Virus record (IMG/VR): IMGVR_UViG_3300042452_000781
Location: 1-64,000 of that record
Direction: 5' to 3' (one strand)
DNA: 64,000 nt
From: a virus
This document shows positions 32,801 through 50,779 of this stretch, piece by piece; the first letter of the stretch is position 1, and each line of letters begins with the position of its first letter. The notes below the pieces were generated by a model. It had not been told where the DNA came from and ran no database searches. It worked only from the letters and a program-made list of their open reading frames with translations. The position numbers and the translations under genes were made by a program.

Positions 32801-35800
32801 GGTGATAAAATTATCAACAACATCTATAGATGCAAAAGTTCTAGGATTTATAAGAAGCCTTTGAGTTTCTTTACTATATAAAACCTTAATAATTTGGTCT
32901 TCTTGTGGTTGCACATCTACGATAATTTGGTCATTTGGGAGCAATTCCGAAACTGATTCAGTGAAAACTGAGACTAAATTTTTATCAACTTGACCGCTAG
33001 TTGATTCATAAGAGGTCAAAAGACTATGCTTCTTCCCTGTGCCGGTGTTGTTATAGTATAGAATTTTCGCAGCACTTGTAGTATTATATCCGACATAATT
33101 TCCAGTGGAACCTACTCCAACCTTTTCAGTGGAAAGGCCAACAAAATCGCCAGAATATGCCACCGCATATAATATTGAACCGTCTGCCAGTGGATAAGTT
33201 AAGGGGCCGCTCGTTACGCTAAAGGATGAGCCCCCATTGTTTTTATAGATTAACTCCTCTCCTGTTGTTAGTGCATGTTCAGGAATGTATATTGATCTTG
33301 TAGGGACATAAACACTCGTAGGGCCGATTCCTGGATTTGAAAAGAAGATCGTAGTTCCAATACCGACACCCACAGATTCTGTCGGGTTGAAGTAAATTTC
33401 TTTATTAATAGGAGAATTTGTAAATCCCTGTCTCCCTGTGGGTATGAAGAATTTTCTAGGAATTTCTACTATTTCTGTACCTGCAATATGAGAAGTTCCT
33501 AAAGTTCCTGCATATTGTCGCTCTACTAATAATCTTGAAGATTTCAGATCAACATTCAATACTTTTATCTTTTCATCTTCTATTTGGAGTATATCATTTT
33601 CTCTAATATTTGGATAATTTAAATTTCCATATAGGTTAAGATATGTTATAGTTCCAGTAAAAAATGGAGCATCTAAGTTTGTATTTAATGTAAACTTTCG
33701 CCCTTCAACTGAGATTCTAAAGACTCTTTGTAACTGAGACTGATTGTGAGATAAATTTGAAATGCCTACTACATCATTATTTTGAAACAGGTGGGGCTCT
33801 TTGCAGAATCCTATAATTCCATATTGTGCATTTGGTGTAAATTCAACATCATAATATGAAGTGGAGGCAATGCTAATTGAGGAAACATTTTTCCCAATTA
33901 TTGACGACACTTCTGCTGCCGCATTTATACCACCTGAAATATCACTATTGAATAATAATTTGTCTCCAATTTTATAATTATCTCCACCCTCGGAAACTAT
34001 AATCGCCTCAACCGAACCTGGAAGTATGCTCGTTATTGTTGAGGTTTGTTCATATTGGCTGAAAGGTTGAACGAGATATTTGTAGAAACTATTTTTGGAA
34101 TTAAATGCAAACGGGGTTACATTTCTCAACCAACCAGTGCCATTTAAATCAATTAAATCTTGATTTGACGAGTAAATAAAATTAAAATCTACAACTTTTG
34201 AATGGTATGTATTTCCTATAAAATATGGAAAGGCCGGCTTAAAATAATTTGCAAATGCCCCAACAGTTTCATATGCACTGTTAGAAATCGTTGAAAAATA
34301 CGCATATGTTCCATTAGGAAATTCTGGTGTCACACAATAACGGCCATTGTGCTCATCTAAATCGCCTGTATTTTTGAATTGGTAATCGTCAACAAAAAAT
34401 CCTTGGGGATATAGAGTTAGGTTCGGTCTGTTTGCGTCTATTACAATTTGATAAGAACTTTCTATACATTTTACGGCACCGCCTGTCTGTCTTTCATAAC
34501 CATATGGTCCGTAAATTGGGCTTCCATCATATGCCCATCCTAAAATTGGGGAGTGAGAATCTGATACCTTTTCTGTTCCATTTACGAACTGTAAATCAGG
34601 TTGATATGTTAAATTACCTGCAATATATTTCGATGCCGATAGGATTCCCCTCAACTTTCTTGGGGCATAACCATGAGTATATTGTAACCCGTAGTCTGAA
34701 TTTATACTCTTTGAGATAATTCCATCATCATCTACAATTTTATTTGTCTGAAATAGTCTTTCAATATTGTTAACAGTCCATCTTTTTATATTGGCCCTAA
34801 TTTTGGCACCATAACCGGCGGGGGTTACTGTTAAGTAAGTATTTCTTGGATCATAATCATAACCGGAATTGATAACTTTTACTTCCTTTATCTCACCATT
34901 TTCAATAATGGGGGTTAATCTTGCACCTCTACCGGAACCAACAATAGTAATGTCTGGAGGAGAGTTGTATCCTACACCAGAATTGATTACTAATACTTGG
35001 GTTATTTTCCCACCGGTTACAATTGCCTGTAATTGTGCCGATTCGCCACTCTTGAAGTTAATCGTTGGTTGCCTATTGTAATTTAAAATGTCTTCTTGGC
35101 CATATTTTTTCCCGCCATTTTCAACTAATACTGAAGTAATTTCACCTCGGAAAATTGGCTGAATTTTGGCTGAAAAGTGAGTGCCAATTCCAGAAATTCC
35201 ATCAATAGTTACAATAATAGGTTCATAGTTGAAATAATGTGTTCCAGTGCCTGAATTTGTAAGAGTTACGAATTGGCCAGTCTTAAAATAATAATCTGGA
35301 ACCTTTGGTGCAACTTCTGACAATTTGAAGCTATTTTCATTTATTGCCGTAACGTAGTAACTCCTATTTGTGGCTAGTCCTGAAATTGGAGCGTCAGTAT
35401 AACCTTCATAAACAATCAACTCACCAGTCTTAAAGTTATGCTCACCTTTATTGATTATATTTGTTTCAATACTAATTCCCCTATAGTCAACGGAAACTTT
35501 ACGATTTTTATAGCCTTCTCCTGGATCAACTATATTAACGGATGAAACCTTTGTTTTAGGTGAAGCTGAAACGATTCTATGGTTAGCTATTCCACTTGGA
35601 ATTAAGGTAATAGTGTTGATGCCCGAAATTGCATCAGAATAAATCTTATGCAATTTGATACTCTGGGCATCCACCGTAGATGTAAAATATTGAGAATTTG
35701 TTGTTATACCAGTAACTTTGGTTAAACCATCTGGCTTGAAGATTACCTTTTCTGCATTGTTAAATCCGTGAAATGTACTAAATCCGATGACATTATTTAC

Positions 35801-38131: not shown

Positions 38132-38134
38132 TTT

Positions 38135-40033
38135 TTATCGCGTTGAATTTCCATTTAGATAACTTGAAGATGTAATATAGCTTGAACCTGATATATCACC
38201 ACCTGAAGATATATCATCTGAAACCATATTTATCGTAGAATAATTGAGATCCATTTGAAGATATAGGTCTTGTAAACCTATAACATCGTTTGATTTCGGA
38301 ATTACTGAAATTTCAATGATATTATTTTTAATGGTTGATAAAATATTTATTGAACTTATTTTAATCTCTCCTGTTGAGTAATCAATGGTCCCAACATTAT
38401 TTCTGATGACTAGTGGAGCATCTTTATTGGTGAATAGAAATAGCGTGCCCGTATATTCATCCGATGGTCTATCGGATATGTAAACGGTGTCGGAAATACC
38501 GCTGACCGTAAATCCAGACGACTTTATGTTGTAGCCATTGATATTTTTAATATGAAATGAATTTCCGAAGCAAGTTTCATAATTTGCAAAAGTGTTCAGA
38601 ACTACTCTTACATCCCGTCTTAATTGAATTTTTGTTATGTTAGATGTTACAGATGCATGACTGTCATCAATCAATTTTTGAAATCTACTATACTTAAATC
38701 TAGACCCAAATCCGTTTAGTTCATATGATTTTGAATAGCTCTGGATGTTATCCGATACTATACTTTTAACATATTCAGGGGATGGAGCAAGATTTGGATT
38801 ATAATATACGTTACTGAATATTTCAATAAAGAGATATTTTAGATCAATAATCTCGGGAACTATTCCGCTTACCGCATAATGCTTTAACTTATTTTTGAGA
38901 TTATCTTTAATGCTATTTGGCACAAAATTACCATAAAATGGTTTGATAGTAATGAATACTTTACCATATTGAGGTGGTGATAAAGTTTCTCCACCATATG
39001 CTGTCACACTTTCGGCCTCTGGATAAATTCTGGGGATGATAGCTTCATAATCCTCGGGAGTTACACACCTACCTTGAGCTGCATAGTTTTTAGGTGCAAG
39101 TTTTTTAATTGAATTGATAGATTCAATTTCTTTGCCGCCACTTGATGCAATGTTTGTCGTAATTACAGAAACACCAGATGTCACAGAACTGTTGTTATTA
39201 TCTACAAGTCTCCCAATAAACGAAAAAGAAGATACACCATTAGCAGCAGAATCATTAGTTGTAACATAAGAAACCTCAATATAATTTTGGCTGTTTAGGC
39301 TAACCCCAAATATACCATCTCCAAAAATGAGTTCATATCTTTGATCTTCAATTTCTTGAATGAAAAATATTTTTGAGGTAGAATTTACATTAAAAAGATT
39401 GTCGGCAAAAGTGAACTTATTTGAGGTTGATGTAGAGATACTATCTCTTACGGTTACTCTTATGGTTGAAGTATCAATTTTTGGATTATCTAAAATATAT
39501 CTTTGTGGTGGTGCTGGATTCAAAGATTCAACGGTAAAGTTATTAATTACGAACGAACCCTCAATTATCTCGATAGACTCAAATAGTGCAATATCATTGA
39601 CAACGGGTACTGTTATATCGTTGGCAACCGAAAAGGTATAAGATTCATTTCCGAACGCCAGAGAAGAGCACACCAGGCCCTTCTTTAGGGTCAATGAGAT
39701 TGGCTTATTTGAAAAAGAGGAAGTATCAACAAAAAACGAAATATTAGCCCGCGCCGCTGTAGAACTCCTCGGCAAGTAGCCGATTTCTCTGGCAGCGGAA
39801 ACGACATTTTCTCTTAAAGTCGCACTATCAAGAAATGCCTCATTGGAAAGCATATTTCCAATGAAGGCATTTGTGTATGTATTATATGCAAGAACGTCTA
39901 TAATTACCGATAGATTTGAACCCTCAAAATCATAATCGGTAAAGTTTGAATTAGACCTTAGATACTCTTTAAGAGCTACCCTAATCTGGTCGTAATCCAA
40001 TGTGGTAAAGTTGACTATGGGTGATGTAGCCAT
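38135..40033 (-). CDS. gp6: Baseplate wedge protein gp6
   Basis: 632 residues, close to T4 gp6 (660). Signatures are the N-terminal NFTTLDYDQIRVALKEYLRS, NFTDYDFEGSNLSVIIDVLA, and YNTYTNAFIGNMLSNEAFLD with SAAREIGYLPRSSTAARANI, plus CVTPEDYEAIIPRIYPEAES. It forms the dimeric core of each wedge and the ring around the hub. The ATG overlaps the gp25 stop codon region, and the gene is followed within two bases by gp7. Confidence 0.95.
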   Translation of the reverse strand: MATSPIVNFTTLDYDQIRVALKEYLRSNSNFTDYDFEGSNLSVIIDVLAYNTYTNAFIGNMLSNEAFLDSATLRENVVSAAREIGYLPRSSTAARANISFFVDTSSFSNKPISLTLKKGLVCSSLAFGNESYTFSVANDITVPVVNDIALFESIEIIEGSFVINNFTVESLNPAPPQRYILDNPKIDTSTIRVTVRDSISTSTSNKFTFADNLFNVNSTSKIFFIQEIEDQRYELIFGDGIFGVSLNSQNYIEVSYVTTNDSAANGVSSFSFIGRLVDNNNSSVTSGVSVITTNIASSGGKEIESINSIKKLAPKNYAAQGRCVTPEDYEAIIPRIYPEAESVTAYGGETLSPPQYGKVFITIKPFYGNFVPNSIKDNLKNKLKHYAVSGIVPEIIDLKYLFIEIFSNVYYNPNLAPSPEYVKSIVSDNIQSYSKSYELNGFGSRFKYSRFQKLIDDSHASVTSNITKIQLRRDVRVVLNTFANYETCFGNSFHIKNINGYNIKSSGFTVSGISDTVYISDRPSDEYTGTLFLFTNKDAPLVIRNNVGTIDYSTGEIKISSINILSTIKNNIIEISVIPKSNDVIGLQDLYLQMDLNYSTINMVSDDISSGGDISGSSYITSSSYLNGNSTR

Positions 40034-40434
40034 TAACGTGTCGGCTGAAGAGCAAAGGATAATTGTTGAGGCTGGGCATCAATTCCGATAATATTGTATC
40101 TTATGACAACATCGTAGGCATTTTCATCATAATTAGGATTTACGTCAACAGATGATAATGATACCCTGGGTTCATAGTTCCTGATTGTATTATCAATTTC
40201 ACTTTGAATATTAGAGGCAGTTGAATCTGTTAGATTTTCAAATAAGCTTCTAGATACACTACAACCAAGATTACTTTGGAAAAATCTTTCACCTTGTAAT
40301 GTATAGACTAAATTACGAATAGAGCGGGATATTGCTGTTTCATTTTTTAGAGCAATAATATCAAACGTTAAAGGGCTAACCTTAAAGGAAGAAGAAAGGT
40401 CTTTGAAAGATTGACTTATTCGCTCTAATGCCAT
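40033..40434 (-). CDS. gp25: Baseplate wedge protein gp25
   Basis: 133 residues, the normal length for gp25 (132 in T4). Diagnostic are FDIIALKNETAISRSIRNLV and YTLQGERFFQSNLGCSVSRS, followed by EIDNTIRNYEPRVSLSSVDV, the GPW/gp25 fold. It initiates sheath assembly on the baseplate. It is the first gene of the baseplate run here; a late promoter-like AATAAATAG precedes it. Confidence 0.95.
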   Translation of the reverse strand: MALERISQSFKDLSSSFKVSPLTFDIIALKNETAISRSIRNLVYTLQGERFFQSNLGCSVSRSLFENLTDSTASNIQSEIDNTIRNYEPRVSLSSVDVNPNYDENAYDVVIRYNIIGIDAQPQQLSFALQPTR

Positions 40435-40457
40435 TATTATAAAACAATCGTTATAAT

Positions 40458-40466
40458 CTATTTATT
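40458..40466 (-). promoter_or_regulatory. Late promoter-like AATAAATAG upstream of gp25
   Basis: ATAAATA on the minus strand 25 bases before the gp25 ATG, overlapping the stop codon of the 41-aa gene. Confidence 0.5.
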
Positions 40467-40590
40467 AGCCAAGTAGAACTTTTTCTCTATCTTTAGTTTC
40501 TTTGCGTTCAAATAACTCTGTTTCTTCTTCTAGAGAAGATTCCATGAATTCTTCACTATCCACTTCTCGGATTAATTTTGGTTGTTCCAT
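40465..40590 (-). CDS. Small acidic protein (41 aa), unrecognised
   Basis: An ORF of 42 codons from the ATG at 40590 (MEQPKLIREVDSEEFMESSL) ending in a TAA at 40465. Highly charged, with Glu runs and a basic tail (KETKDREKVLLG). It lies between a divergent late promoter and gp25, which supports it being real, but it has no family I can name. Confidence 0.55.
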   Translation of the reverse strand: MEQPKLIREVDSEEFMESSLEEETELFERKETKDREKVLLG

Positions 40591-40611
40591 TGTATTATCA
40601 ATTGACTGATC

Positions 40612-40628
40612 CTATTTAGCTAAATAAT
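40612..40628. promoter_or_regulatory. Divergent late promoter pair sharing a palindrome
   Basis: The palindrome ATTTAGCTAAAT (40614-40625) creates CTAAATAGG reading left toward the 41-aa gene and gp25, and CTAAATAATG reading right toward the plus-strand gene at 40648. It sits exactly between divergent genes, 22-25 bases from each start. Confidence 0.55.
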
Positions 40629-40647
40629 GTTACATTGATAAACTAAA

Positions 40648-41307
40648 ATGGAAAGCGTAGATTTTAAGGGTTTGTATGAATCTTATAGAAGTGTTTATAA
40701 TGAAGAAGTAGAGGAGCTTGATGAGATGAAAGAGGGCTATACCGATCCAAAATTCAATAGAAAAGAATATTTAGCCAAACTCTCAAAACGGGGTGGCATG
40801 GGGATGGGCACGAAAGAAGATCCTCATGGTTATAGAGACCCTAAAATGGCTAAAGTTGGTGCAGAATTTGTAAAAAGGACAACTGCACGATCCAAGTCAA
40901 AAAAGTCTGGAGAGCCTGATGAATATAAAACTGAAAAGGAATCACAATCAAAACTGAGATCTACCAATGAATCCACCGATCTATATGATCTAGTTCTAGA
41001 ATATCTTCTTGATGAAGGTCTTTGCGAATCAGTTGAAAATGCTGAGATTATGATGGCTCATATGAGCGAGGGTTGGGTTGATGCTATTGTTGAAGAAAAG
41101 AAAGTTGTGATGAGCGTCACTTCACCTACCGGGAAGAATCGGCAACTAAATACAACTCGCGCAACGAGTCCAGCAAAAAATCTATCAGGTCAGGATCGCC
41201 TTGCTGCCGCGAAAGATTTGAGGCAGAAAAAAGTAGACAAGCGTGCGTACCAAATTAGCGCAAAACTAAAACGTAGGTATGGACTTAGAAGTAGTGATTT
41301 AGATTGA
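40648..41307 (+). CDS. Cyanophage protein (219 aa) with shared C-terminal EGL-MSEGW motif
   Basis: Begins MESVDFKGLYESYRSVYNEE. The N-terminal LYESYRSVY motif is a recurrent opening of small cyanophage proteins. Near residue 115 it has YLLDEGLCESVENAEIMMAH followed by MSEGWVDAIVEEKK, a motif shared with the genes at 42566 and 44180. The C-terminus is basic (QKKVDKRAYQISAKLKRRYG). It is expressed from the late divergent promoter and ends at a strong terminator. Possibly a head-associated protein; function unknown. Confidence 0.75.
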   Translation: MESVDFKGLYESYRSVYNEEVEELDEMKEGYTDPKFNRKEYLAKLSKRGGMGMGTKEDPHGYRDPKMAKVGAEFVKRTTARSKSKKSGEPDEYKTEKESQSKLRSTNESTDLYDLVLEYLLDEGLCESVENAEIMMAHMSEGWVDAIVEEKKVVMSVTSPTGKNRQLNTTRATSPAKNLSGQDRLAAAKDLRQKKVDKRAYQISAKLKRRYGLRSSDLD

Positions 41308-41330
41308 GATTTTTAATTGTTGATTGCAGC

Positions 41331-41358
41331 AAAAAGCCCCCAAATCGGGGGCTTTTTT
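41331..41358. terminator. Bidirectional terminator between convergent genes
   Basis: AAAAAGCCCCC, loop AAAT, GGGGGCTTTTTT: a perfect GC stem with an A-run on one side and a T-run on the other. It can end both the plus gene finishing at 41307 and the minus gene finishing at 41363. Confidence 0.9.
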
Positions 41359-41362
41359 AATG

Positions 41363-41497
41363 TCAACCTTGACCTCGATAACGCTTTCGGGCCTTATTTG
41401 AGCTAGTAGAAGCATATTTTGTATGCTTTCCATCGCCTTGTCTGGACTTCTTTGGTCTAGATTGAATGTCGCTTGAACTCTTTGTCTTTGCTGCCAT
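41363..41497 (-). CDS. Small basic protein (44 aa)
   Basis: ATG at 41497 with AGGAG seven bases upstream. It begins MAAKTKSSSDIQSRPKKSRQ and ends SNKARKRYRGQG. The run RQGDGKHTKYASTSSNKAR is familiar from small conserved proteins of T4-like cyanophages, but no function is known to me. Strongly basic, so nucleic-acid or capsid association is possible. Its ribosome site overlaps the stop codon of the upstream 46-aa gene, suggesting coupled translation. Confidence 0.7.
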   Translation of the reverse strand: MAAKTKSSSDIQSRPKKSRQGDGKHTKYASTSSNKARKRYRGQG

Positions 41498-41507
41498 GGT
41501 TTTTCTC

Positions 41508-41648
41508 CTAAACGTAATTAAAATCTACTTTGTCTTCGTCAATTTCGCCTTTATAGGCTTTTTCGGCTAATTCAACTAAAATAACAAGAGATTCTTCTTC
41601 TGTTACTTGTTTATGAATTACTTTCCCGTCGTATAGAATGTTAATCAT
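41508..41648 (-). CDS. Small acidic protein (46 aa), unrecognised
   Basis: ATG at 41648, starting MINILYDGKVIHKQVTEEES and ending KVDFNYV. The composition is a short beta hairpin followed by an acidic helix. It lies two bases after the glycosyltransferase gene and its TAG is part of the ribosome site of the next gene, so the three form one transcription unit ending at the terminator at 41331. Confidence 0.6.
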   Translation of the reverse strand: MINILYDGKVIHKQVTEEESLVILVELAEKAYKGEIDEDKVDFNYV

Positions 41649-41650
41649 TT

Positions 41651-42487
41651 TCAAATTGCGAACGTCTTTTCGTGGCCAACTCTAATTCGTGGATCTACCC
41701 ACACCGGAATCCCTTTTTCTTTTGCGGTCAAGCAGAAGCCAACGTCTTCACCGCAATAATCAACAATCTCACCATTATTAAAGGTCTGGAGCAACGGCGG
41801 CCACCAGGGATATTCCATACTCTCAAATACACCTTTTTGAACCATCAGCCAGCCCCCACCAACATAATCACAAGTAAATGGCTTCTTGCGCGATAGCATT
41901 GTTTCAATCTTTTCCATATTCATCATCCCTTTGTTCTTGACAAATTCATCTGATTCTAACCAAAATGCACAGGCAGTATGTTCACGATCCTCGGTTGAAT
42001 ACCAACCAGATGCAATTGCCCTAGTCTTAGATTGATCAATATGTTGATGTAATCCTAGTAGTTTACCATCATCATCTCGCACCTCATCGTATGTAACCGC
42101 CTCATCTGGTAGAGCAAGATCACATAATTGCCAAAAATTCTCCGGTGTGAATGCAATATCGCTATCAATCCACATTTGATAATCATATTCTATTTGGCCC
42201 TGCCAGGGAACCTGATGTGGACCAGCGAGTACATTAGCCCCGAGAACCTTACAACGAGCAAAATTTACCATACTGCTATAATCTTGCTGAATATGCAATT
42301 GCATATTATTCTGGGCAATTTGAAAACACAACTGCACGAAATTTTTCAGAAAGTTATAAGAGCAACCTCTTCCAGGTAGACATAAAACTATAGATTTCCC
42401 CTGCATCTTTTGCTTGATCTTATTATAATCCCATTCAGGCTCAACTACAGTTGGTTGCCTCTCTTTAATTTGAAACCCCTTGGCCAT
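41651..42487 (-). CDS. Putative glycosyltransferase
   Basis: From the ATG at 42487 (MAKGFQIKERQPTVVEPEWD) the protein has 278 residues; a TTG at 42532 would add 15. A GT-A-like fold is suggested by IVLCLPGRGCSYNFLKNFVQ near the N-terminus, the acidic DxD motif in YDYQMWIDSDIAFTPENFWQ, and the late GEDVGFCLTAKEKGIPVWVD. The DxD would bind the divalent metal and nucleotide sugar. Similar proteins occur in T4-like cyanophages, where the acceptor (phage DNA, virion protein or host glycan) is unknown. It heads a three-gene minus-strand unit. Confidence 0.8.
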   Translation of the reverse strand: MAKGFQIKERQPTVVEPEWDYNKIKQKMQGKSIVLCLPGRGCSYNFLKNFVQLCFQIAQNNMQLHIQQDYSSMVNFARCKVLGANVLAGPHQVPWQGQIEYDYQMWIDSDIAFTPENFWQLCDLALPDEAVTYDEVRDDDGKLLGLHQHIDQSKTRAIASGWYSTEDREHTACAFWLESDEFVKNKGMMNMEKIETMLSRKKPFTCDYVGGGWLMVQKGVFESMEYPWWPPLLQTFNNGEIVDYCGEDVGFCLTAKEKGIPVWVDPRIRVGHEKTFAI

Positions 42488-42533
42488 ATTGTTCGCTTTT
42501 GCAATAATGCGTCCTATATAGGTGCTCTCCAAT

Positions 42534-42541
42534 CATAAATA
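42534..42541 (+). promoter_or_regulatory. Late promoter-like CATAAATA for the plus-strand cluster
   Basis: ATAAATA on the plus strand 25 bases before the ATG at 42566. Confidence 0.5.
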
Positions 42542-42565
42542 ATTTGAAGAACTAAGAGTGTTTGA

Positions 42566-42841
42566 ATGCCTATTGATACCGCCGAGTTAAAGAGACTCAT
42601 TGCCAAGAAGTCTGCCAAATTGAGCAAACCACCCTCGTATGGAAAGACTAATAGAACGCAGACTGATGAGGCGGAAAAGGAATTTAAGAATGAGCGTGAT
42701 AAGCTGATGAAAGAGTATAAAGAAATCATTGCAGACATTTTATTCAATGAAGGATTGGTTGATTCTCAAGAATCCTTGAAAGTAATTCTTGGTGTTATGA
42801 GTGAGAGTTTTATTGAAAAAGTAGCTAGAAATTCCAAATGA
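42566..42841 (+). CDS. Small helical protein (91 aa) with the shared EGLVDSQES...MSE motif
   Basis: Begins MPIDTAELKRLIAKKSAKLS. The C-terminal half ILFNEGLVDSQESLKVILGV followed by MSESFIEKVA matches the motif in the genes at 40648 and 44180. It is translationally coupled (ATGA) to the basic protein at 42838. It is first in a four-gene plus-strand operon that may be packaged into the head; function unknown. Confidence 0.75.
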   Translation: MPIDTAELKRLIAKKSAKLSKPPSYGKTNRTQTDEAEKEFKNERDKLMKEYKEIIADILFNEGLVDSQESLKVILGVMSESFIEKVARNSK

Positions 42842-43476
42842 AAACTTTTGACCAGTTTATAAACGAGGCTAAGCACGGCCCCCGTAGCTCAAAGGAACGA
42901 AGACAGCAAAGAGGCGAGAATTTATCAAAAATTCTAAAACGGAGAATGGGAACTAGAGCCAAAATTCGTGGTGGAAGCGATGAACATATTCACACCACTT
43001 CAGATCCTGATGATGTTTCAATAGAAATTAGAAAATATAAAAATCCAGCACATTATGCTGCAGGTGAAACCCCAAAGGTCAATACTATTAATGGAAAAAA
43101 TGTAGTCGTTAAAAACTCAGAAAGAGCGTTTAAGGCAAATCAGCTAAGAAAACAAATAACCAAAAATCGTAGAAACCCGAAAGGAACCGTATTCACTACT
43201 GATATTGTCCCAAATTTAGAAAGAGGACATGGTGATTTTGAGAACATTAAAAAGAGAACTCAAAATCTTAAAAAGGCTGTTGGAAATGTTCCAAGAGAAA
43301 TTAAAAAAGCCGGAGGAAAGTCTGGTGATGTTGTTATTGGAAAACCCGGTCAAACTCAAAGTGGCGGTCCAGAAAAAGCCGGAAGAAATTCCAGGGCTAA
43401 GTTATATAAAAAGCTACTTCCTAATGCCAGTAAAATGAACCCCGTTACAAATCGTATGATGGGTAAAGTAGAATGA
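42838..43476 (+). CDS. Basic candidate internal head protein with capsid-targeting-like N-terminus
   Basis: 212 residues. The N-terminus MKTFDQFINEAKHGPR closely resembles the capsid-targeting sequence of T4 internal proteins (MKTYQEFIAEA), and I-N-E/A fits the gp21 protease rule ([LI]-x-E before A/G), predicting removal of ten residues. The rest is very basic and Lys/Arg-rich (KERRQQRGENLSKILKRRMG), which suits packing with DNA. No enzyme motif is evident. It overlaps both neighbours by ATGA. Packaging and injection with DNA are inferred by analogy. Confidence 0.78.
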   Translation: MKTFDQFINEAKHGPRSSKERRQQRGENLSKILKRRMGTRAKIRGGSDEHIHTTSDPDDVSIEIRKYKNPAHYAAGETPKVNTINGKNVVVKNSERAFKANQLRKQITKNRRNPKGTVFTTDIVPNLERGHGDFENIKKRTQNLKKAVGNVPREIKKAGGKSGDVVIGKPGQTQSGGPEKAGRNSRAKLYKKLLPNASKMNPVTNRMMGKVE

Positions 43477-43856
43477 AGACATTTGAAGAATTTCTGAATG
43501 AGGCAAATCAACCAAAATCCGATGCCCTAAAAACTATCAGTAAAAACTGGGAAAGAAGACCAAATTATAAGGGAGTCAACGTATATGCAACTCAAAATAA
43601 AGACCACATAAGAGTTCACGACTTATTTGTGCCGTCTCATTTGAGGGGCAAAGGTGTTGGTGGTAGAGTTATGAAAGGAGTTACAAGATTAGCAGATAAA
43701 CAGGGCTCCAAAGTATCTTTAAATCAGGCCCCGGCTCCAGGTTATAAGAAAAAGTTAGACACATTTTATAAGAATTTTGGTTTTAAGTCTAATAAAGGAA
43801 GAAATAAAGACTTTACAACAAGAGATACACATATCAGGCAACCAAAAGATAAATAA
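43473..43856 (+). CDS. GNAT-like acetyltransferase with capsid-targeting-like N-terminus
   Basis: 127 residues starting MKTFEEFLNEANQPK, again a T4 internal-protein-like leader with the gp21-type site L-N-E/A after residue 10. From about residue 35 it follows the GNAT pattern: a beta strand HIRVHDLFVPSHL, the acetyl-CoA loop RGKGVGGRVM ([RQ]-x-x-G-x-G), the helix KGVTRLADKQG, and a C-terminal YKNFGFK that resembles the GNAT FYxxxGF motif. It is short for the family but has the core. The sequence suggests an acetyltransferase delivered in the virion, comparable in logic to T4 Alt; the target is unknown. Confidence 0.8.
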   Translation: MKTFEEFLNEANQPKSDALKTISKNWERRPNYKGVNVYATQNKDHIRVHDLFVPSHLRGKGVGGRVMKGVTRLADKQGSKVSLNQAPAPGYKKKLDTFYKNFGFKSNKGRNKDFTTRDTHIRQPKDK

Positions 43857-43866
43857 AATAAAAAAG

Positions 43867-44151
43867 ATGCAACCAAACAAGACATTTGAAGAATTTCTTT
43901 CTGAGGCCATTGCAGCCACTAGAGCTACAACTAGAGGCAGAAAAATTCCAGGCGCGGCTCAGAAAATAACTGCCCAAAATGACCGCAGAGAAGAAGCCCG
44001 AGCACGCCAACGTGAAAGAGAGGCTCAAAGGCAGAGAGACATTGAATATGCTCAAGAGCGAAGAGCGAATCCAGAGCTTATTAAAAAAGAAGCAAGAAAA
44101 AGAACCCTTCCCAGTAGAATGGAAAGAGCCGCACAAAAGTTGGGTTTATGA
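43867..44151 (+). CDS. Small basic candidate internal head protein (94 aa)
   Basis: I choose the ATG at 43867 (MQPNKTFEEFLSEAIAAT) because the longer ORF starts inside the upstream gene. KTFEEFLSEA repeats the capsid-targeting-like leader with site L-S-E/A. The remainder is an Arg/Glu/Gln-rich helix (RREEARARQREREAQRQRD) with a basic tail (RKRTLPSRMERAAQKLGL). Third member of the leader-bearing set in this operon. Confidence 0.72.
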   Translation: MQPNKTFEEFLSEAIAATRATTRGRKIPGAAQKITAQNDRREEARARQREREAQRQRDIEYAQERRANPELIKKEARKRTLPSRMERAAQKLGL

Positions 44152-44158
44152 TAAATAG
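44150..44158 (+). promoter_or_regulatory. Late promoter-like GATAAATAG
   Basis: Plus strand, 22 bases before the ATG at 44180, overlapping the stop of the preceding gene. Confidence 0.5.
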
Positions 44159-44179
44159 ACTTAATAAGTAATTTGTGAA

Positions 44180-44578
44180 ATGGACATTAGAGAACTTTCT
44201 AATTTGTATGATTCTTATGTGGCCATTTACGAGATGAAGTCCACTCGTATTTCAAAGAGTAGAGAAGCTTATATTAATCCCGATCAAAGTAAAGACTGGA
44301 AGCATAATAAAGAATTAAATTGGGGCGAAACTCATCCTAAAGTACCTTCACATAAAGAAGCAATGGTCAAAAGACTAAAATTTGCCATTGGCACTCAAAG
44401 GCGTCAAGATAAAGAAACTGGTATGCGTGAACACGTCTTAGATTATCTTGTAAATGAAGGCTACGTTGATTCTTATGAGTCGGCTGAATGTGTTTTAGAG
44501 GCTATGAGTGATGAATGGTTGGAGAGTATCGTTGAGGCGAAGAAAGCTAAAATTATGGTTGACGTTAATAACCCATAA
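44180..44578 (+). CDS. Cyanophage protein (132 aa) with shared EGYVDSYES...MSDEW motif
   Basis: Begins MDIRELSNLYDSYVAIYEMK, again the LYxSYxxxY opening. The C-terminal YLVNEGYVDSYESAECVLEA and MSDEWLESIVEAKKAK match the motif of the genes at 40648 and 42566, and S-I-V-E/A would fit a gp21-type site. It has its own late promoter-like element and ends at a long hairpin. Function unknown. Confidence 0.75.
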   Translation: MDIRELSNLYDSYVAIYEMKSTRISKSREAYINPDQSKDWKHNKELNWGETHPKVPSHKEAMVKRLKFAIGTQRRQDKETGMREHVLDYLVNEGYVDSYESAECVLEAMSDEWLESIVEAKKAKIMVDVNNP

Positions 44579-44589
44579 GTGAAATTTTT

Positions 44590-44618
44590 AGGGGTTCTCT
44601 TAATAAAAGAGAACCCCT
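44590..44618. terminator. 11-bp perfect hairpin between convergent genes
   Basis: AGGGGTTCTCT, loop TAATAAA, AGAGAACCCCT. It lies between the plus gene ending at 44578 and the minus endonuclease gene ending at 44688. There is no strong T-run on its downstream side in either direction, so termination is likely but not certain. Confidence 0.5.
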
Positions 44619-44687
44619 TGTCAGGTTAACAGTGATAGTATGAATATACCGAAGAGTTCAAAGAATAGGAGGAGTTGGAGCATTTTG

Positions 44688-45488
44688 TTAATTGAGAGAA
44701 TTTAAAACTTTTTTCTTTCTTCCGCCCACTCCAGGACACTTTTTGCCTTTATTGGGCGGAACCTTACTTTTCATAGGATTTCTGTCCCCTTGCTTTGAGA
44801 AACGCCTGCAGCAAGTTTGTCCCATTTTTAATCCAGTAACTAGAACTTCTCTTTCTCCACCGCAATCACAATACACTTTAACTTTAGACCATTTTGTTAT
44901 TCTGGATGGAATGTAAACTACAGACAATCCTCTTCTTTGACATTCTTGTGCAATGTGTTCTCTCCAATACTTATCGCCATAAGATGTAGTTCTATTTTCT
45001 CGCAAAATTACTTTTGCTTGTTTTAATAATACCATAATTGAACCTTTTGATAGCCCAATCTTGTTTGCAATTTTGGTAATTGAAAGTTTTTCATTCTCAT
45101 AAAGATACTTTGCATAATCTCTATGTTGTTGATTTATACTTATTCCTCTGTTCCAACCACCTTCCACATAATCATTATTTGTTTTGTTAATGCAAAGTGG
45201 ATTGTTTTTTAAATTGTAAGTTTGAAGAACAATGGTCTCATAATCAACAGCATCTTTATCTGTTTCAAAAAATGCTATAGGATACAAAGTTCTTTTTAAG
45301 AGATTCCAATTACTATCAGAAGAACTTCCAAGATAACCATCGTTTAAATTATGAGTTGAATGCTTCCCGAAATAAAAGTAGTTCGGATTTTCTTCTGAAA
45401 CTACAACGTAAACAAAATGAAATTCACCAGTAGATTTACTTCTTACACTTTCTACCAGTAAATTTGAATACAATAAGTCCTTGTCCAT
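44688..45488 (-). CDS. GIY-YIG-like free-standing homing endonuclease
   Basis: 266 residues. Residues 25-60 contain FVYVVVSEENPNYFYFGKHS followed by DGYLGSS, a GIY-YIG variant as found in phage seg-like endonucleases. The middle has a helix-turn-helix (YENEKLSITKIANKIGLSKG). The C-terminus has Cys pairs (VYCDCGGE, QTCCRRF) and a NUMOD3-like GDRNPMKSKVPPNKGKK DNA-contact motif. It lies directly downstream of the psbA terminator. Free-standing endonucleases next to psbA are known in cyanophages (F-CphI of S-PM2 is one), so it may target psbA alleles; that is inference. Confidence 0.8.
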   Translation of the reverse strand: MDKDLLYSNLLVESVRSKSTGEFHFVYVVVSEENPNYFYFGKHSTHNLNDGYLGSSSDSNWNLLKRTLYPIAFFETDKDAVDYETIVLQTYNLKNNPLCINKTNNDYVEGGWNRGISINQQHRDYAKYLYENEKLSITKIANKIGLSKGSIMVLLKQAKVILRENRTTSYGDKYWREHIAQECQRRGLSVVYIPSRITKWSKVKVYCDCGGEREVLVTGLKMGQTCCRRFSKQGDRNPMKSKVPPNKGKKCPGVGGRKKKVLNSLN

Positions 45489-45530
45489 ACGGGTTCATAG
45501 TTTTAACGGCATTGCTATTTAGTGCGTATT

Positions 45531-45555
45531 AAAAAGGGAGAACCGAAGTTCTCCC
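45531..45555 (-). terminator. psbA terminator
   Basis: On the minus strand GGGAGAAC, UUCG-type loop, GUUCUCCC followed by TTTTT. A textbook intrinsic terminator about 40 bases after the psbA stop codon. Confidence 0.92.
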
Positions 45556-45593
45556 AATTTTGCCGATATGGTTCTATGAACCGTAACTATTTA

Positions 45594-45652
45594 TCAACCA
45601 ATAGTTGGGGCTTTTAGAGCAATTTCTTGAGTAGAAACTGCAGCCAAATCTA
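45594..45652 (-). CDS. psbA: psbA exon 5 (codons 341-359)
   Basis: Begins TA completing Leu341 and reads [18 protein letters not shown] to a TGA. A344 is the processed C-terminal residue in mature D1, so the last 15 residues would be removed by the host CtpA protease. Confidence 0.88.
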
Positions 45653-48097
45653 CACTTGGCCCATAAGTTTACCATTCTTATGGAGTGGACTATATCATCA
45701 CCATTGAAGGTGTCGGACGCTTATTCCTGTTATTAAGGGGACTAAACCCCTCAGGTAGTCTCTGAAGTTTCCTCAAGTGTACTTGAGGCTTACCTGCTGA
45801 TTGCCCAGTGTTTTGGAGGGTTTCCAGCAATTCATCCGATGTTTCATCTATCAATTACTTGATAGAGCCACTAGATTTTCTAATGGGAAGTTGTGGGCGT
45901 TTCTCTCATGTCGTTTGTTATCGTAAGAACTCTTTATTTCTTACTTCTTACTATCACTAGTAAGTCCAGACTATCTCTTCATCCGTTCTGGATGCTGGGC
46001 ATTCGTGGGTAGATTATTGTTGGAACTCACTACCTAGTCGTTAGACCTGCCGAAGAACCTATGTCCTCTTCGGATTGGTACGGGATTGTCTACTTGAGAG
46101 TTTCCCCGTTTAACCCAGTTTCGTCAAGGAATATTCCTATTCCAGGGTGACTACATTTAAGAAATCACTTCCATTCCAAGCCCAGCTTTGTTCAATACGT
46201 CCGACCAGGTATTAATTACCCGACCTTGACTATCTTGGATAGATTGATTGAAATTAAATCCGTTCAGGTTGAATGCCATAGTGCTAACACCAAGAGCAGT
46301 AAACCAGATGCCCACAACAGGCCATGCGGCGAGGAAGAAGTGCAGCGAACGGGAGTTATTAAAGGACGCATATTGGAAAATAAGACGACCGAAATACCCG
46401 TGAGCGGCAACAATTGAATAAGTTTCTTCCTCTTGGCCAAACTTATACCCATAATTTTGAGATTCATTTTCGGTTGTTTCACGAACAAGGCTGCTAGTGA
46501 CTAACGAGCCATGCATCGCTGAGAAAAGACTTCCTCCGAATACTCCCGCCACACCCAACATGTGAAAAGGATGTTGAAGGATATTGTGTTCTGCCTGGAA
46601 TACCAACCATTAGGCAGAACGGGGACCTATGTTTTCATAGGGATTGGACTATCTCATAATTAATAGAAATTTCTATTAATCTCGGGCGCTGATTCTGGTT
46701 ATTAAGAGGGCTATACCTCTCCAGTAGTCTCTACACTTTACATGAGTGTACTCAAGTCTTAGCACGGTATTGGCATATCTATAAGACTTAGCTTTCACCG
46801 TTTTCACCCGATTTATACTACACATTGGTTTAGTTTATGTAGTTAAAGGTTCCTGAAATGCCAAGGGGCATCGCATCTGAAAAAGAACCTTGACCGAAGG
46901 GATAGATTAGGAATACGGCAGTAGCAGCAGCAACGGGTGCGCTGTAAGCAACCATAATCCAAGGACGCATTCCGAGACGATAAGAAAGTTCCCATTCACG
47001 GCCCATGTAGCAGTAAATACCAATCAGGAAGTGAAATATGATGAGTTGAAATGGACCCCCATTATAGAGCCATTCATCAAGACTTGCAGCTTCCCAAATT
47101 GGATAAAAATGCAGCCCAATAGCATTAGAAGAAGGAACAACAGCACCAGAGATAATGTTGTTACCATACATTAGTGAACCAGCAACTGGTTCACGAATCC
47201 CGTCGCTTACATCTAACAAACAACCATATCAATAGACTTAGGTTGTTTCTGTTGGCGAATTCGATTTGCTCTTTTTGCGTTTTCAACTCTTCCACCGTTT
47301 TCTACCCACTCTTTCCAAGTTTGTAGATGAGAAATACATTCGGTTATTCTTTCCCCCCGTCTTACTCCCATATAAGGGAGTATTTTTTGTAGAATGAATA
47401 AGACCTTTTCTTTTTCTCCGATGTGAAGGGTATAAACTTGTTTCCCTGTTACCGTTTTTCTTGATGGAGAAAAGTAAGATTTATCTAAAAGTTTGCTCAA
47501 CCTTTGGATAATATCTTCATCAACCATAGAAATTTTGATAAAGGGTGCTGGTGGTGTTTTAGAAATTTCATAGCGGTCTTTGGAACGATCATCTATTCCA
47601 AAGTATCCTTCACCTTCTAATAAACCAGCAATCCAAGCAATATCAGTTTCAGTTAAATTTAACATTTTGGTTTGCGTCTTCTGTATTATTTATACAGCAT
47701 TAGCAACAAAAAGTCAACAGTAGATGTGTGGACTATATCTTCACCCTTTATAGAAGGGGCTGGGCACTTAAACCTGTTATTAAGGGGACTAAACCCCTCA
47801 GGTAGTCTCTGAACCTTCCCCAAGTGTACTTGAGGCTTGGCTGCTGATTGCCTTTCGGTTTCCAGCAATTCACCCAGTTTCGTCAATACTCTTACGAGTA
47901 AGGGACACCGATTAGTTAATGTCTACAGGAGGTGCGCCAATAAAAGCGATAATAAAAACTGAAGTAGCAGCAAGAAGGCAAGGAATCATAAGAACTCCAA
48001 ACCATCCCACATATAAACGATTGTTCGTTGAAGTAACCCAGGAACAAAATTGCTCCCAGAGATTACCCCCCGAGCGTGTAGCAATTGAAGCGGTCAT
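45594..48097 (-). CDS. psbA: Photosystem II D1 protein, five exons split by four group I introns
   Basis: Joining 48097-47919, 47205-46837, 46607-46164, 45911-45883 and 45652-45594 gives 1080 nt, or 359 residues plus stop, the usual D1 length. At every junction the exon ends in T and the intron in G, as group I introns require. The product starts [20 protein letters not shown] and keeps the QEEET and [15 protein letters not shown] phrases. It retains the manganese-cluster ligands D170, E189, H332, E333, H337, D342 and A344, and H190 beside Tyr-Z. Phage D1 maintains host photosynthesis during infection. Oddities: Ile at the usual Met331 and Leu at 184. Confidence 0.93.
45653..45882 (-). ncRNA. 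psbA group I intron 4 (230 nt)
   Basis: Lies within the Leu341 codon (CCAT/TAGAT). The minus strand has the P7-like pair CAGAGACTA (near 45760) and GATATAGTCC (near 45690) and the stretch TTAAGxxGGGGTTTAGTCCCC-type P8. It lacks an ORF. The core is strikingly similar to that of intron 1. Confidence 0.88.
45883..45911 (-). CDS. psbA: psbA exon 4, 29-nt microexon (codons 331-341)
   Basis: Reads HERNAHNFP with partial flanking codons, i.e. D1 residues 331-341 including H332, E333 and H337. Found by matching the conserved D1 C-terminus; both ends agree with the U/G group I splice rule. Confidence 0.88.
45912..46163 (-). ncRNA. psbA group I intron 3 (252 nt)
   Basis: Splits codon 331 (GTGAT/ACATGAG). 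It has GACGAAACTGGGT near its 5' end and GAAGAGATAGTCTGG as the P7 3' strand. No ORF. The sequence between differs from introns 1, 2 and 4, so it is a separate group I lineage. Confidence 0.85.
46164..46607 (-). CDS. psbA: psbA exon 3 (codons 183-331)
   Basis: Starts with the G completing Met183, then [20 protein letters not shown], and runs to NKAGLGMEV. Contains E189 and H190, the H215 and H272 iron ligands ([10 protein letters not shown] and FFLAAWP regions) and the [17 protein letters not shown] phrase. Confidence 0.92.
46608..46836 (-). ncRNA. psbA group I intron 2 (229 nt)
   Basis: Splits codon 183 (TACAT/GTTGG). The core contains GTAGAGACTACTGGAGAGG and the P7 3' partner GAGATAGTCC. 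No ORF. Related in sequence to introns 1 and 4, but more diverged. Confidence 0.87.
46837..47205 (-). CDS. psbA: psbA exon 2 (codons 60-183)
   Basis: Starts with the C completing Ile60, then [20 protein letters not shown] and runs to GISGTFNY. Contains Tyr161 and D170 ([13 protein letters not shown] region) and H118 ([10 protein letters not shown]). Confidence 0.92.
47206..47918 (-). ncRNA. psbA group I intron 1 (713 nt) with endonuclease gene
   Basis: Splits codon 60 (GACAT/CGACGG). It begins TAACTAATCGGTG, has GACGAAACTGGGT, GAATTGCTGGAAACC, CAGAGACTACCTGAGG and the P7 3' strand GATATAGTCC near 47730. A LAGLIDADG ORF occupies its 3' part and stops seven bases before the splice site. Confidence 0.9.
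47213..47665 (-). CDS. Intron-encoded LAGLIDADG homing endonuclease
   Basis: 150 residues starting [34 protein letters not shown] is a single LAGLIDADG motif, so the enzyme would act as a homodimer. Later phrases [20 protein letters not shown] and [13 protein letters not shown] fit LAGLIDADG domains. It lies wholly within psbA intron 1, after the ribozyme core, and should drive intron homing into intronless psbA. Confidence 0.88.
47919..48097 (-). CDS. psbA: psbA exon 1 (codons 1-60)
   Basis: [20 protein letters not shown] through [10 protein letters not shown], the D1 N-terminus and first membrane helix ([19 protein letters not shown]). Reads into the intron and stops three codons later if unspliced. 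Confidence 0.93.
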
Positions 48098-48400
48098 ATT
48101 TGAAAAAAAGGTAACAAATATTCGCGGGGACGAATGTGATTATTATTTCTTCTCTCCCCCAGAGAAGATATGAGAGACGTATTTGATGTGCAAAGTCTCG
48201 GTAAGCACGGGAGCAAGTTAGGAATCCCTGACCTGCTTGTGTATGTATGGTAACACTTTTTGTGGATTAGTCAAGGGGTGTTGTGTCAGTTGAGGGAGTG
48301 ACCTCTTAGTTTAGTTTTGAATAATCAACTACCATATTCCATAAGGAGTATTGCCAGAGAACAGTCCGGGTCAATTCGGCTTCCGTGAAAACTATTATCC
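48098..48400 (-). promoter_or_regulatory. psbA upstream region with promoter and 5'-UTR hairpin
   Basis: No gene is visible here. On the minus strand TTGACT-N16-TACCAT (48246-48273) is a sigma-70-like promoter. The leader of about 140 nt contains an 8-bp hairpin TCTTCTCT, loop GGGGG, AGAGAAGA (48148-48168). No clear Shine-Dalgarno precedes the ATG. Confidence 0.5.
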
Positions 48401-50035: not shown

Positions 50036-50378
50036 CAATCAAATTCTCAAGATCATCAAAGAAATTTTCATCCAATGGAACACAGTCATCCAGATTAATG
50101 TTTGCGGTCATTTCCATCAAATCCTCTAAAAATTCTTTAGGATAGGTATCATCTTCATTCAAATCATACCAGAATGTTAAATAGCATTCTTCAAAGGGGT
50201 TATCCTCATCTTGAAGAGCATAATTCTTTTGATTTTCAGGAAACCATACAAGGTCCATCCAGGTATGAAAATTGTTATAAATGGATGTCCATCCTGTCAT
50301 CCAACAGTGTTCAATCCAATAATTCCACCAATTTAACTTGGTCTTGTCTGTTGCTAAAATAGGTCTTGAAACTGTCAT
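50028..50378 (-). CDS. Hypothetical acidic protein (116 aa)
   Basis: MTVSRPILATDKTKLNWWNY, unusually rich in Trp and Asp/Glu (WMTGWTSIYNNFHTWMDLVW; C-terminal NFFDDLENLIDD). Starts by ATGA overlap with the LRV gene. The acidic, Trp-rich character is reminiscent of DNA-mimic or inhibitor proteins, but that is speculation; no family recognised. Confidence 0.65.
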   Translation of the reverse strand: MTVSRPILATDKTKLNWWNYWIEHCWMTGWTSIYNNFHTWMDLVWFPENQKNYALQDEDNPFEECYLTFWYDLNEDDTYPKEFLEDLMEMTANINLDDCVPLDENFFDDLENLIDD

Positions 50379-50779
50379 AATGTTGGATGCTCCTTATAAA
50401 ACTCATAGGCTCTTACGGTTTGAATGATTTCTCTTGTTGCGTTTGGGTTTCTTTCAACTCTCCAGCGAACATTAAAGCTCTCATCTCGGGCAAGAATTGT
50501 TAGAGTTTCGGGTGGTGTGTTAGGATTGGATGCAACTCCACAGCGAACAGTCCAATCCTCATCTTGAGCAAGAATCGTTAGAGTTTCGGGTGGTGTGTTG
50601 GGGTTGTTTGCAACTCTCCAGCGAACATCAACATCCTCATCTCGGGCAAGAATTGTTAGAGTTTCAGATGAAGAAGTCATAACGAAATCAGTAGTGCAAC
50701 CACCTCCACTGCCTCTTACAACTACCATAATATCATCTGGAAACTCGCTCAAGGCTTCAATCAATTCGGCCTTTGTCAT
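50375..50779 (-). CDS. Leucine-rich-variant (LRV) repeat protein
   Basis: 134 residues: an N-terminal helix (MTKAELIEALSEFPDDIMVV), a Gly-rich turn, then three tandem repeats of about 26-30 residues of the form ETLTILAxDEDxxVRWRVANNPNTPP. This is the LRV pattern, a helical solenoid of unknown binding partner. It heads the overlapping operon that runs down to 48401. A remnant of the same repeat lies at 61045-61103 and a single related unit occurs in the gene at 56021. Confidence 0.78.
   Translation of the reverse strand: MTKAELIEALSEFPDDIMVVVRGSGGGCTTDFVMTSSSETLTILARDEDVDVRWRVANNPNTPPETLTILAQDEDWTVRCGVASNPNTPPETLTILARDESFNVRWRVERNPNATREIIQTVRAYEFYKEHPTL

Follow-up and report, generated by a model that had tools for sequence, protein, structure and literature searches.

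The DNA analysed here (the window) comprises 64,000 of the 64,581 bases of the IMG/VR cyanophage record IMGVR_UViG_3300042452_000781. Its psbA gene lies on the minus strand, with the start codon at 48097 and the 3' end at 45594. A sequence-only reading had proposed that a 359-residue D1 is recovered only if four insertions (713, 229, 252 and 230 nt) are taken out. Two spliced aligners, one comparing nucleotides with the intronless S-CRM01 psbA and the other an independent protein-profile aligner, reproduced this exactly and returned identical intron lengths and junctions. The introns follow coding nt 179, 548, 992 and 1021, corresponding to codons 60, 183, 331 and 341, and at all four the exon ends in T and the intron in G, as had been read from the sequence. 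Both aligners have a slight built-in preference for such T/G junctions; when it was turned off, 41 of 48 junctions at 11 loci including the window still had this form and intron numbers were unchanged. Without splicing, the psbA frames are closed by stop codons inside the introns.

Spliced alignment divides the gene into five exons. Exon 1 (179 nt, 47919–48097), which matches Pfam Photo_RC, is separated by intron 1 (713 nt, 47206–47918) from exon 2 (369 nt, 46837–47205). Intron 2 (229 nt, 46608–46836) and exon 3 (444 nt, 46164–46607) follow; exons 2 and 3 were also identified with Pfam. Intron 3 (252 nt, 45912–46163) precedes the 29-nt exon 4 (45883–45911), which encodes residues 332–340 plus the split codons and contains H332 and E333. 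Intron 4 (230 nt, 45653–45882) and exon 5 (56 nt, or 59 with the stop codon, 45594–45652) complete the gene. All of these features are on the minus strand, as is an upstream PhotoRC-II RNA motif that lies within the leader of psbA (48135–48220; RF01717, 52.6 bits, cutoff 39). At the exon 3/exon 4 junction (exon 4, 45883–45911), I331 stands beside H332/E333; the phage relatives compared, S-SRM01 and the contig L137 described below, have M331, a difference that we count against the proposed splicing.

The Rfam group I model RF00028 matched each of the four insertions above its cutoff of 50, with 69.7, 74.2, 58.0 and 79.6 bits for introns 1 to 4 (E values from 1.3e-18 to 3.9e-12); the match to intron 1 runs from 47928 to 47707. 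No further group I match to this model was present in the 64-kb window up to an E value of 1. An insertion of about 33–40 nt after P7 was visible in the alignments to this model, which covers all group I introns. Every 5' exon ends in U and every intron in G, and the exon end can pair with an internal guide to form a P1 helix of 5, 7, 5 and 4 pairs for introns 1 to 4, with a U.G pair at the splice site. The Rfam matches, the splice junctions and the P1 pairing all bear out the earlier reading, according to which a single phage psbA carries four group I introns. We conclude that the psbA of this cyanophage almost certainly specifies a single pre-mRNA with four embedded group I ribozymes and five exons that yield a normal D1. 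In this scheme the internal guide of each ribozyme would pair with the last 4–7 bases of the preceding exon, guanosine would drive cleavage at the 5' splice site, and the freed exon would then be joined to the next one after the terminal G of the intron. The five joined exons would encode the ordinary 359-residue protein. For the psbA intron of S-PM2, Puxty et al. (2018, PMC5931967) describe efficient splicing during infection.

Since the window encodes a portal protein, a terminase large subunit, a baseplate wedge and other virion proteins, it is phage and not plastid DNA, and chloroplast contamination is ruled out. A different concern is that the interruptions are assembly chimeras or mark a decaying pseudogene. 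The source is indeed a metagenome contig, and a broken psbA does exist among the relatives (L226, whose spliced frame is fragmented). However, a 13,068-base segment of the window (34022–47089), which spans introns 2–4 and excludes intron 1, recurs with 100% identity in a second record (IMGVR_UViG_3300020570_000102). Moreover, the 359-codon frame is intact. Comparison of the spliced psbA with that of S-SRM01 gave a dN of 0.110 and a dS of 1.566, i.e. a dN/dS of about 0.07, indicating purifying selection, with the reservation that synonymous sites are close to saturation or have reached it; the corresponding values against L137 were 0.104 and 1.513. The last 35 codons, a stretch that includes the two shortest exons, are less constrained (dN of 0.226 and 0.185). 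Many further contigs are occupied at the same sites, and psbA introns also occur in the isolates S-PM2, S-SRM01 and S-CBWM1. Taken together, these results make an artefact or a pseudogene exceedingly improbable.

Intron 1 contains an ORF of 150 aa (47213–47665, minus strand), which is located in L9, flanked by the P9 strands ACATCTA and TAGATGT. Its match to PF14528 (LAGLIDADG_3) had an E value of 2.9e-4 and, at 21.5 bits, was just under the cutoff of 22.5; a relative of the ORF in another contig (L109) scored 24.8 bits, above this cutoff. An AlphaFold model of the protein had a pLDDT of 76.2, and a Foldseek search with this model gave nine matches at E ≤ 0.001, to I-CvuI (E = 8.2e-5) and I-MsoI; I-CreI was matched as well. 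Because the predicted fold matches these enzymes, we take the ORF product to be a LAGLIDADG-type homing endonuclease with the single-motif fold that they share. Sequence identity to them was 10–22% in the Foldseek alignments; they are chloroplast enzymes, and their target genes are rRNA genes, unlike psbA. The PHROG family of the ORF is labelled HNH, an assignment that we reject because the predicted fold does not bear it out. Relatives of the enzyme were present at 25 or more IMG/VR loci, and the LAGLIDADG motif was unchanged in all 14 that were aligned, a stretch containing a stop codon (L105) having been left out. At L110:2826-4480, a psbA that is intronless and divergent (79% D1 identity) is closely followed by a free-standing relative of the enzyme, 89% identical.

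The intron 1 enzyme would be expected to spread its intron by homing, cleaving intronless psbA in the vicinity of coding nt 179. Introns 2–4 contain no ORF, which rules out movement by endonucleases of their own; three of the four window ribozymes are therefore without an endonuclease and their mobility is not accounted for by the explanation that we favour, a point that we count against it. In these introns an endonuclease gene may have been lost or may never have been present, and they may travel by co-conversion or with the help of a neighbour's endonuclease, perhaps the one encoded just downstream of psbA. At that position lies a free-standing ORF of 266 aa (44688–45488, minus strand) that resembles homing endonucleases. 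It matched phrog_314 ('homing endonuclease') with an E value of 1.7e-6 and, below cutoff, GIY-YIG with an E value of 0.082; a search for relatives brought up a single one, in the identical record. The layout is similar to that of S-PM2, in which a psbA group I intron is accompanied by the free-standing endonuclease F-CphI downstream. The window's ORF may be a candidate for collaborative homing of the S-PM2 type, in which an intron blocks the psbA target of a free-standing endonuclease. F-CphI belongs to the Endo VII type, whereas the window's neighbour is weakly GIY-YIG-like. The single S-PM2 intron follows coding nt 1002, a site that is empty in the window.

The usual picture for group I introns in phage genes is one or two per gene. 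The sequence-only reading had set the window against a baseline of one known phage psbA intron, and this baseline proved too low. In S-CBWM1 the annotation itself places two group I introns in psbA, at nt 649 and 1011. Alignment and Rfam identified three in S-SRM01, at nt 276, 750 and 1002, which are unannotated as such; they scored 91.9, 81.5 and 39.0 bits, the third being below cutoff (E = 7.6e-7). Both isolates resemble the window in carrying several psbA introns, one of them with an endonuclease gene, and differ from it in that none lies at any of the window's four sites. The authors of S-SRM01 (PMC8557907) speak of partial ORFs for psbA and suspect a single intron; in practical terms, phage psbA genes are being annotated as fragments, as in S-SRM01.

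We searched for psbA in four IMG/VR scans and three phage records. A D1 match was found at no fewer than 315 loci, 155 of which lacked one uninterrupted match. These 155 loci held at least 226 introns, with T/G junctions at 225 of the 226, the aligner slightly favouring this form. As the loci overlap, these numbers are redundant, and the cleaner count is at least 159 distinct introns at 17 sites among the matches listed, i.e. after nt 179, 230, 276, 317, 408, 499, 548, 556, 570, 645, 750, 890, 992, 1002, 1008, 1011 and 1021. Left out of these counts were a doubtful 'site' at codon 221 in L146 and the psbA at L226:207-3069, in which the D1 frame is fragmented besides its introns; the 17 also exclude the S-CBWM1 site at nt 649, which was identified at a later stage. 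Among the matches listed, 51 of the 159 distinct introns are at least 500 nt long and 108 are shorter than 400 nt. All 159 can form a P1 of four or more pairs, compared to about 60 expected from shuffled sequence. In 17 further loci with several introns, RF00028 gave 59 matches above cutoff, each on a different one of the 63 introns called there; the remaining four introns all carry an ORF. ORFs at sites other than that of the window's enzyme are of GIY-YIG type at nt 230, HNH by Pfam at nt 276 and 645, HNH by PHROG at nt 548 and 570, or unassigned.

The largest number of introns among the matches listed was nine, in the psbA at L137:6653-11257 (L137 is IMGVR_UViG_3300042987_001812). Nine RF00028 matches coincide with these nine introns, eight above cutoff and one at 48.7 bits, and the ten exons, of which the shortest are 14 and 19 nt, join to encode a 359-residue D1. 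Four introns in one phage psbA is nevertheless rare: when 120 psbA stretches were drawn arbitrarily by exon pattern, nine contained any intron (95% interval 3.5 to 13.8%), two of the nine having two.

Such patchy presence bears on the idea that the introns are retained as light-responsive regulators of D1 synthesis and are not simply tolerated mobile elements. This idea draws on S-PM2, whose single psbA intron is spliced in a light-dependent manner according to Puxty et al. (2018, PMC5931967), who also describe psbA introns as widespread in marine metagenomic libraries. Besides the patchiness, the endonuclease genes and the mosaic introns described below suit mobile elements. The two readings are not mutually exclusive, but we regard retention for regulation as unlikely.

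Introns at different psbA sites can be 90–97% alike over 180–190 nt; for example, introns at nt 548 and 645 share 96.7% identity over 182 nt. The first 30 nt instead follow the site. When cores were 0.6–0.7 alike, head identity averaged 0.68 for introns at the same site compared to 0.49 for introns at different sites with equal core identity. Intron triples showed blocks, with both ends resembling an intron at the same site and the core resembling an intron at another. Two of nine hand-picked triples were without signal (p = 0.41 and 0.58), and one 'same site' row of that set compared sites 1021 and 1011. Because two triples lacked signal, we used a systematic set, in which 26 of 46 triples were significant after Bonferroni correction and 20 were not; 23 of the 26 begin with a same-site block. 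Nearest-neighbour counts for head, core and tail were 82, 77 and 71 of 95, and 58, 37 and 44 of 84; they agree, but differ only mildly at the looser cut. Intron 4 of the window has a head like that of nt-1011 introns and a core segment like that of nt-890 introns, and CCCAT precedes both nt 1011 and nt 1021. We read these mosaics as the product of recombination between introns of one gene, in which catalytic cores would be swapped while the guide and the exon-pairing ends remain with the site.

The sequence-only reading had also drawn a parallel to the four-intron psbA of the Chlamydomonas chloroplast. A chloroplast parallel is present, but four introns as in Chlamydomonas is too loose a description of it. 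Under the Mesostigma psbA numbering of Table 4 in PMC2442088, the chloroplast psbA of Oedogonium cardiacum has ten group I introns, after nt 179, 276, 384, 408, 525, 548, 570, 645, 754 and 898; the Oedogonium psbA introns belong to subgroup IA1. Six of these ten positions (nt 179, 276, 408, 548, 570 and 645) are among the 17 phage sites in the matches listed, and 384, 525, 754 and 898 were not seen there. Introns 1 and 2 of the window, after nt 179 and 548, are at Oedogonium sites, whereas introns 3 and 4, after nt 992 and 1021, have no counterpart in the table. The plastid psbA positions in Scherffelia (525, group I) and Tydemania (576, group II) do not coincide with any of the 17 phage sites in the matches listed.

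The hypergeometric probability of six shared sites was 2.3e-9 when any position was allowed, and 2.3e-6, 1.2e-5 and 8.8e-5 for three sets restricted to T positions; the restricted values are only a guide because three shared sites fall outside the common-T positions of 43 intronless phage genes. The ORFs agree as well. The same source places a LAGLIDADG (1) ORF in L9 at nt 179 and HNH ORFs in L5 at nt 276 and 548. Among the phages, nt 179 has the LAGLIDADG ORF in L9 of the window, nt 276 an ORF starting in L5 (S-SRM01) whose family Pfam assigns to HNH (L132), and nt 548 an ORF starting in L5 (L098) that is HNH by PHROG only. The 3' ends of both L5 ORFs extend into the core.

Two explanations of the shared sites have to be weighed. 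One is that a single pool of mobile group I introns supplies both cyanophage and green-algal chloroplast psbA genes, so that the introns at the six shared positions would be homologous and moved by homing endonucleases, either directly or via cyanobacteria or a third carrier. The other is convergence, in which endonucleases and ribozymes of both worlds settled independently on the same codons of a highly conserved protein; all six shared positions do lie in residues that are fully conserved across the 43 phage genes compared. However, the null limited to conserved T positions still gave 1.2e-5, and convergence does not require that endonuclease type and host loop agree, as they do for the tested families at all three shared sites with an ORF on both sides. 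Same-site introns of ulvophyceans are also said in PMC5430533 always to bear the same type of endonuclease. Several points weigh against a common pool: four of the ten positions in Oedogonium and, in the matches listed, 11 of the 17 in phages are unshared, the comparison is one of positions on the published Mesostigma numbering, three shared sites fit the restricted nulls inexactly, and the nt-548 ORF is HNH by PHROG only. In addition, no relative of the window's endonuclease was found in 48 prokaryote pattern stretches of genome_contigs, a search of limited sensitivity. Position, enzyme type and loop lead us to consider a common pool probable, with some reservation, and convergence a possibility that we find rather doubtful. 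A common pool would extend the explanation given above for the window and does not oppose it. We are evenly divided on the broader proposal that psbA is one intron archipelago across viruses and plastids, in which site-specific, endonuclease-bearing introns are exchanged, phages accumulate up to nine per gene, and cores are swapped while ends are kept.

A search of open PubMed Central, which subscription papers are mostly outside, brought up no account of a phage psbA with four introns or more, of the exchange of cores among such introns or of sites shared with chloroplast psbA. The gene concerned is a host-derived photosynthesis gene, with four introns in the window and nine in a relative whose shortest exon is 14 nt. 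One short transcript would therefore have to run several ribozymes in order during lytic infection. The correspondence of site, endonuclease and loop offers a testable route to the origin of chloroplast psbA introns and to their movement among distant algae. The mosaics constitute a natural experiment on a ribozyme acquiring a new target, and if the archipelago proposal is true, a ribozyme core could reach new sites without evolving a new guide.

A 19-nt motif of the intron core was also found outside psbA, at 29 of 118 loci among the matches listed, the 29 being loci that lack psbA; an exact search with it gave no match in genome_contigs, a search of limited sensitivity. One of the 29, L117:9309-11502, has the motif flanked by a head scaffolding gene on one side and an SU10-type major capsid gene on the other, the capsid match being without the first 50 profile positions. 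On inspection by eye, the same flanking proteins were seen on at least one side of the motif in 27 further loci; L187 did not show them. Elsewhere in the window, an ORF at 50375–50779 contains tandem repeats of the type ETLTILARDE..WRVANNPNTPP.
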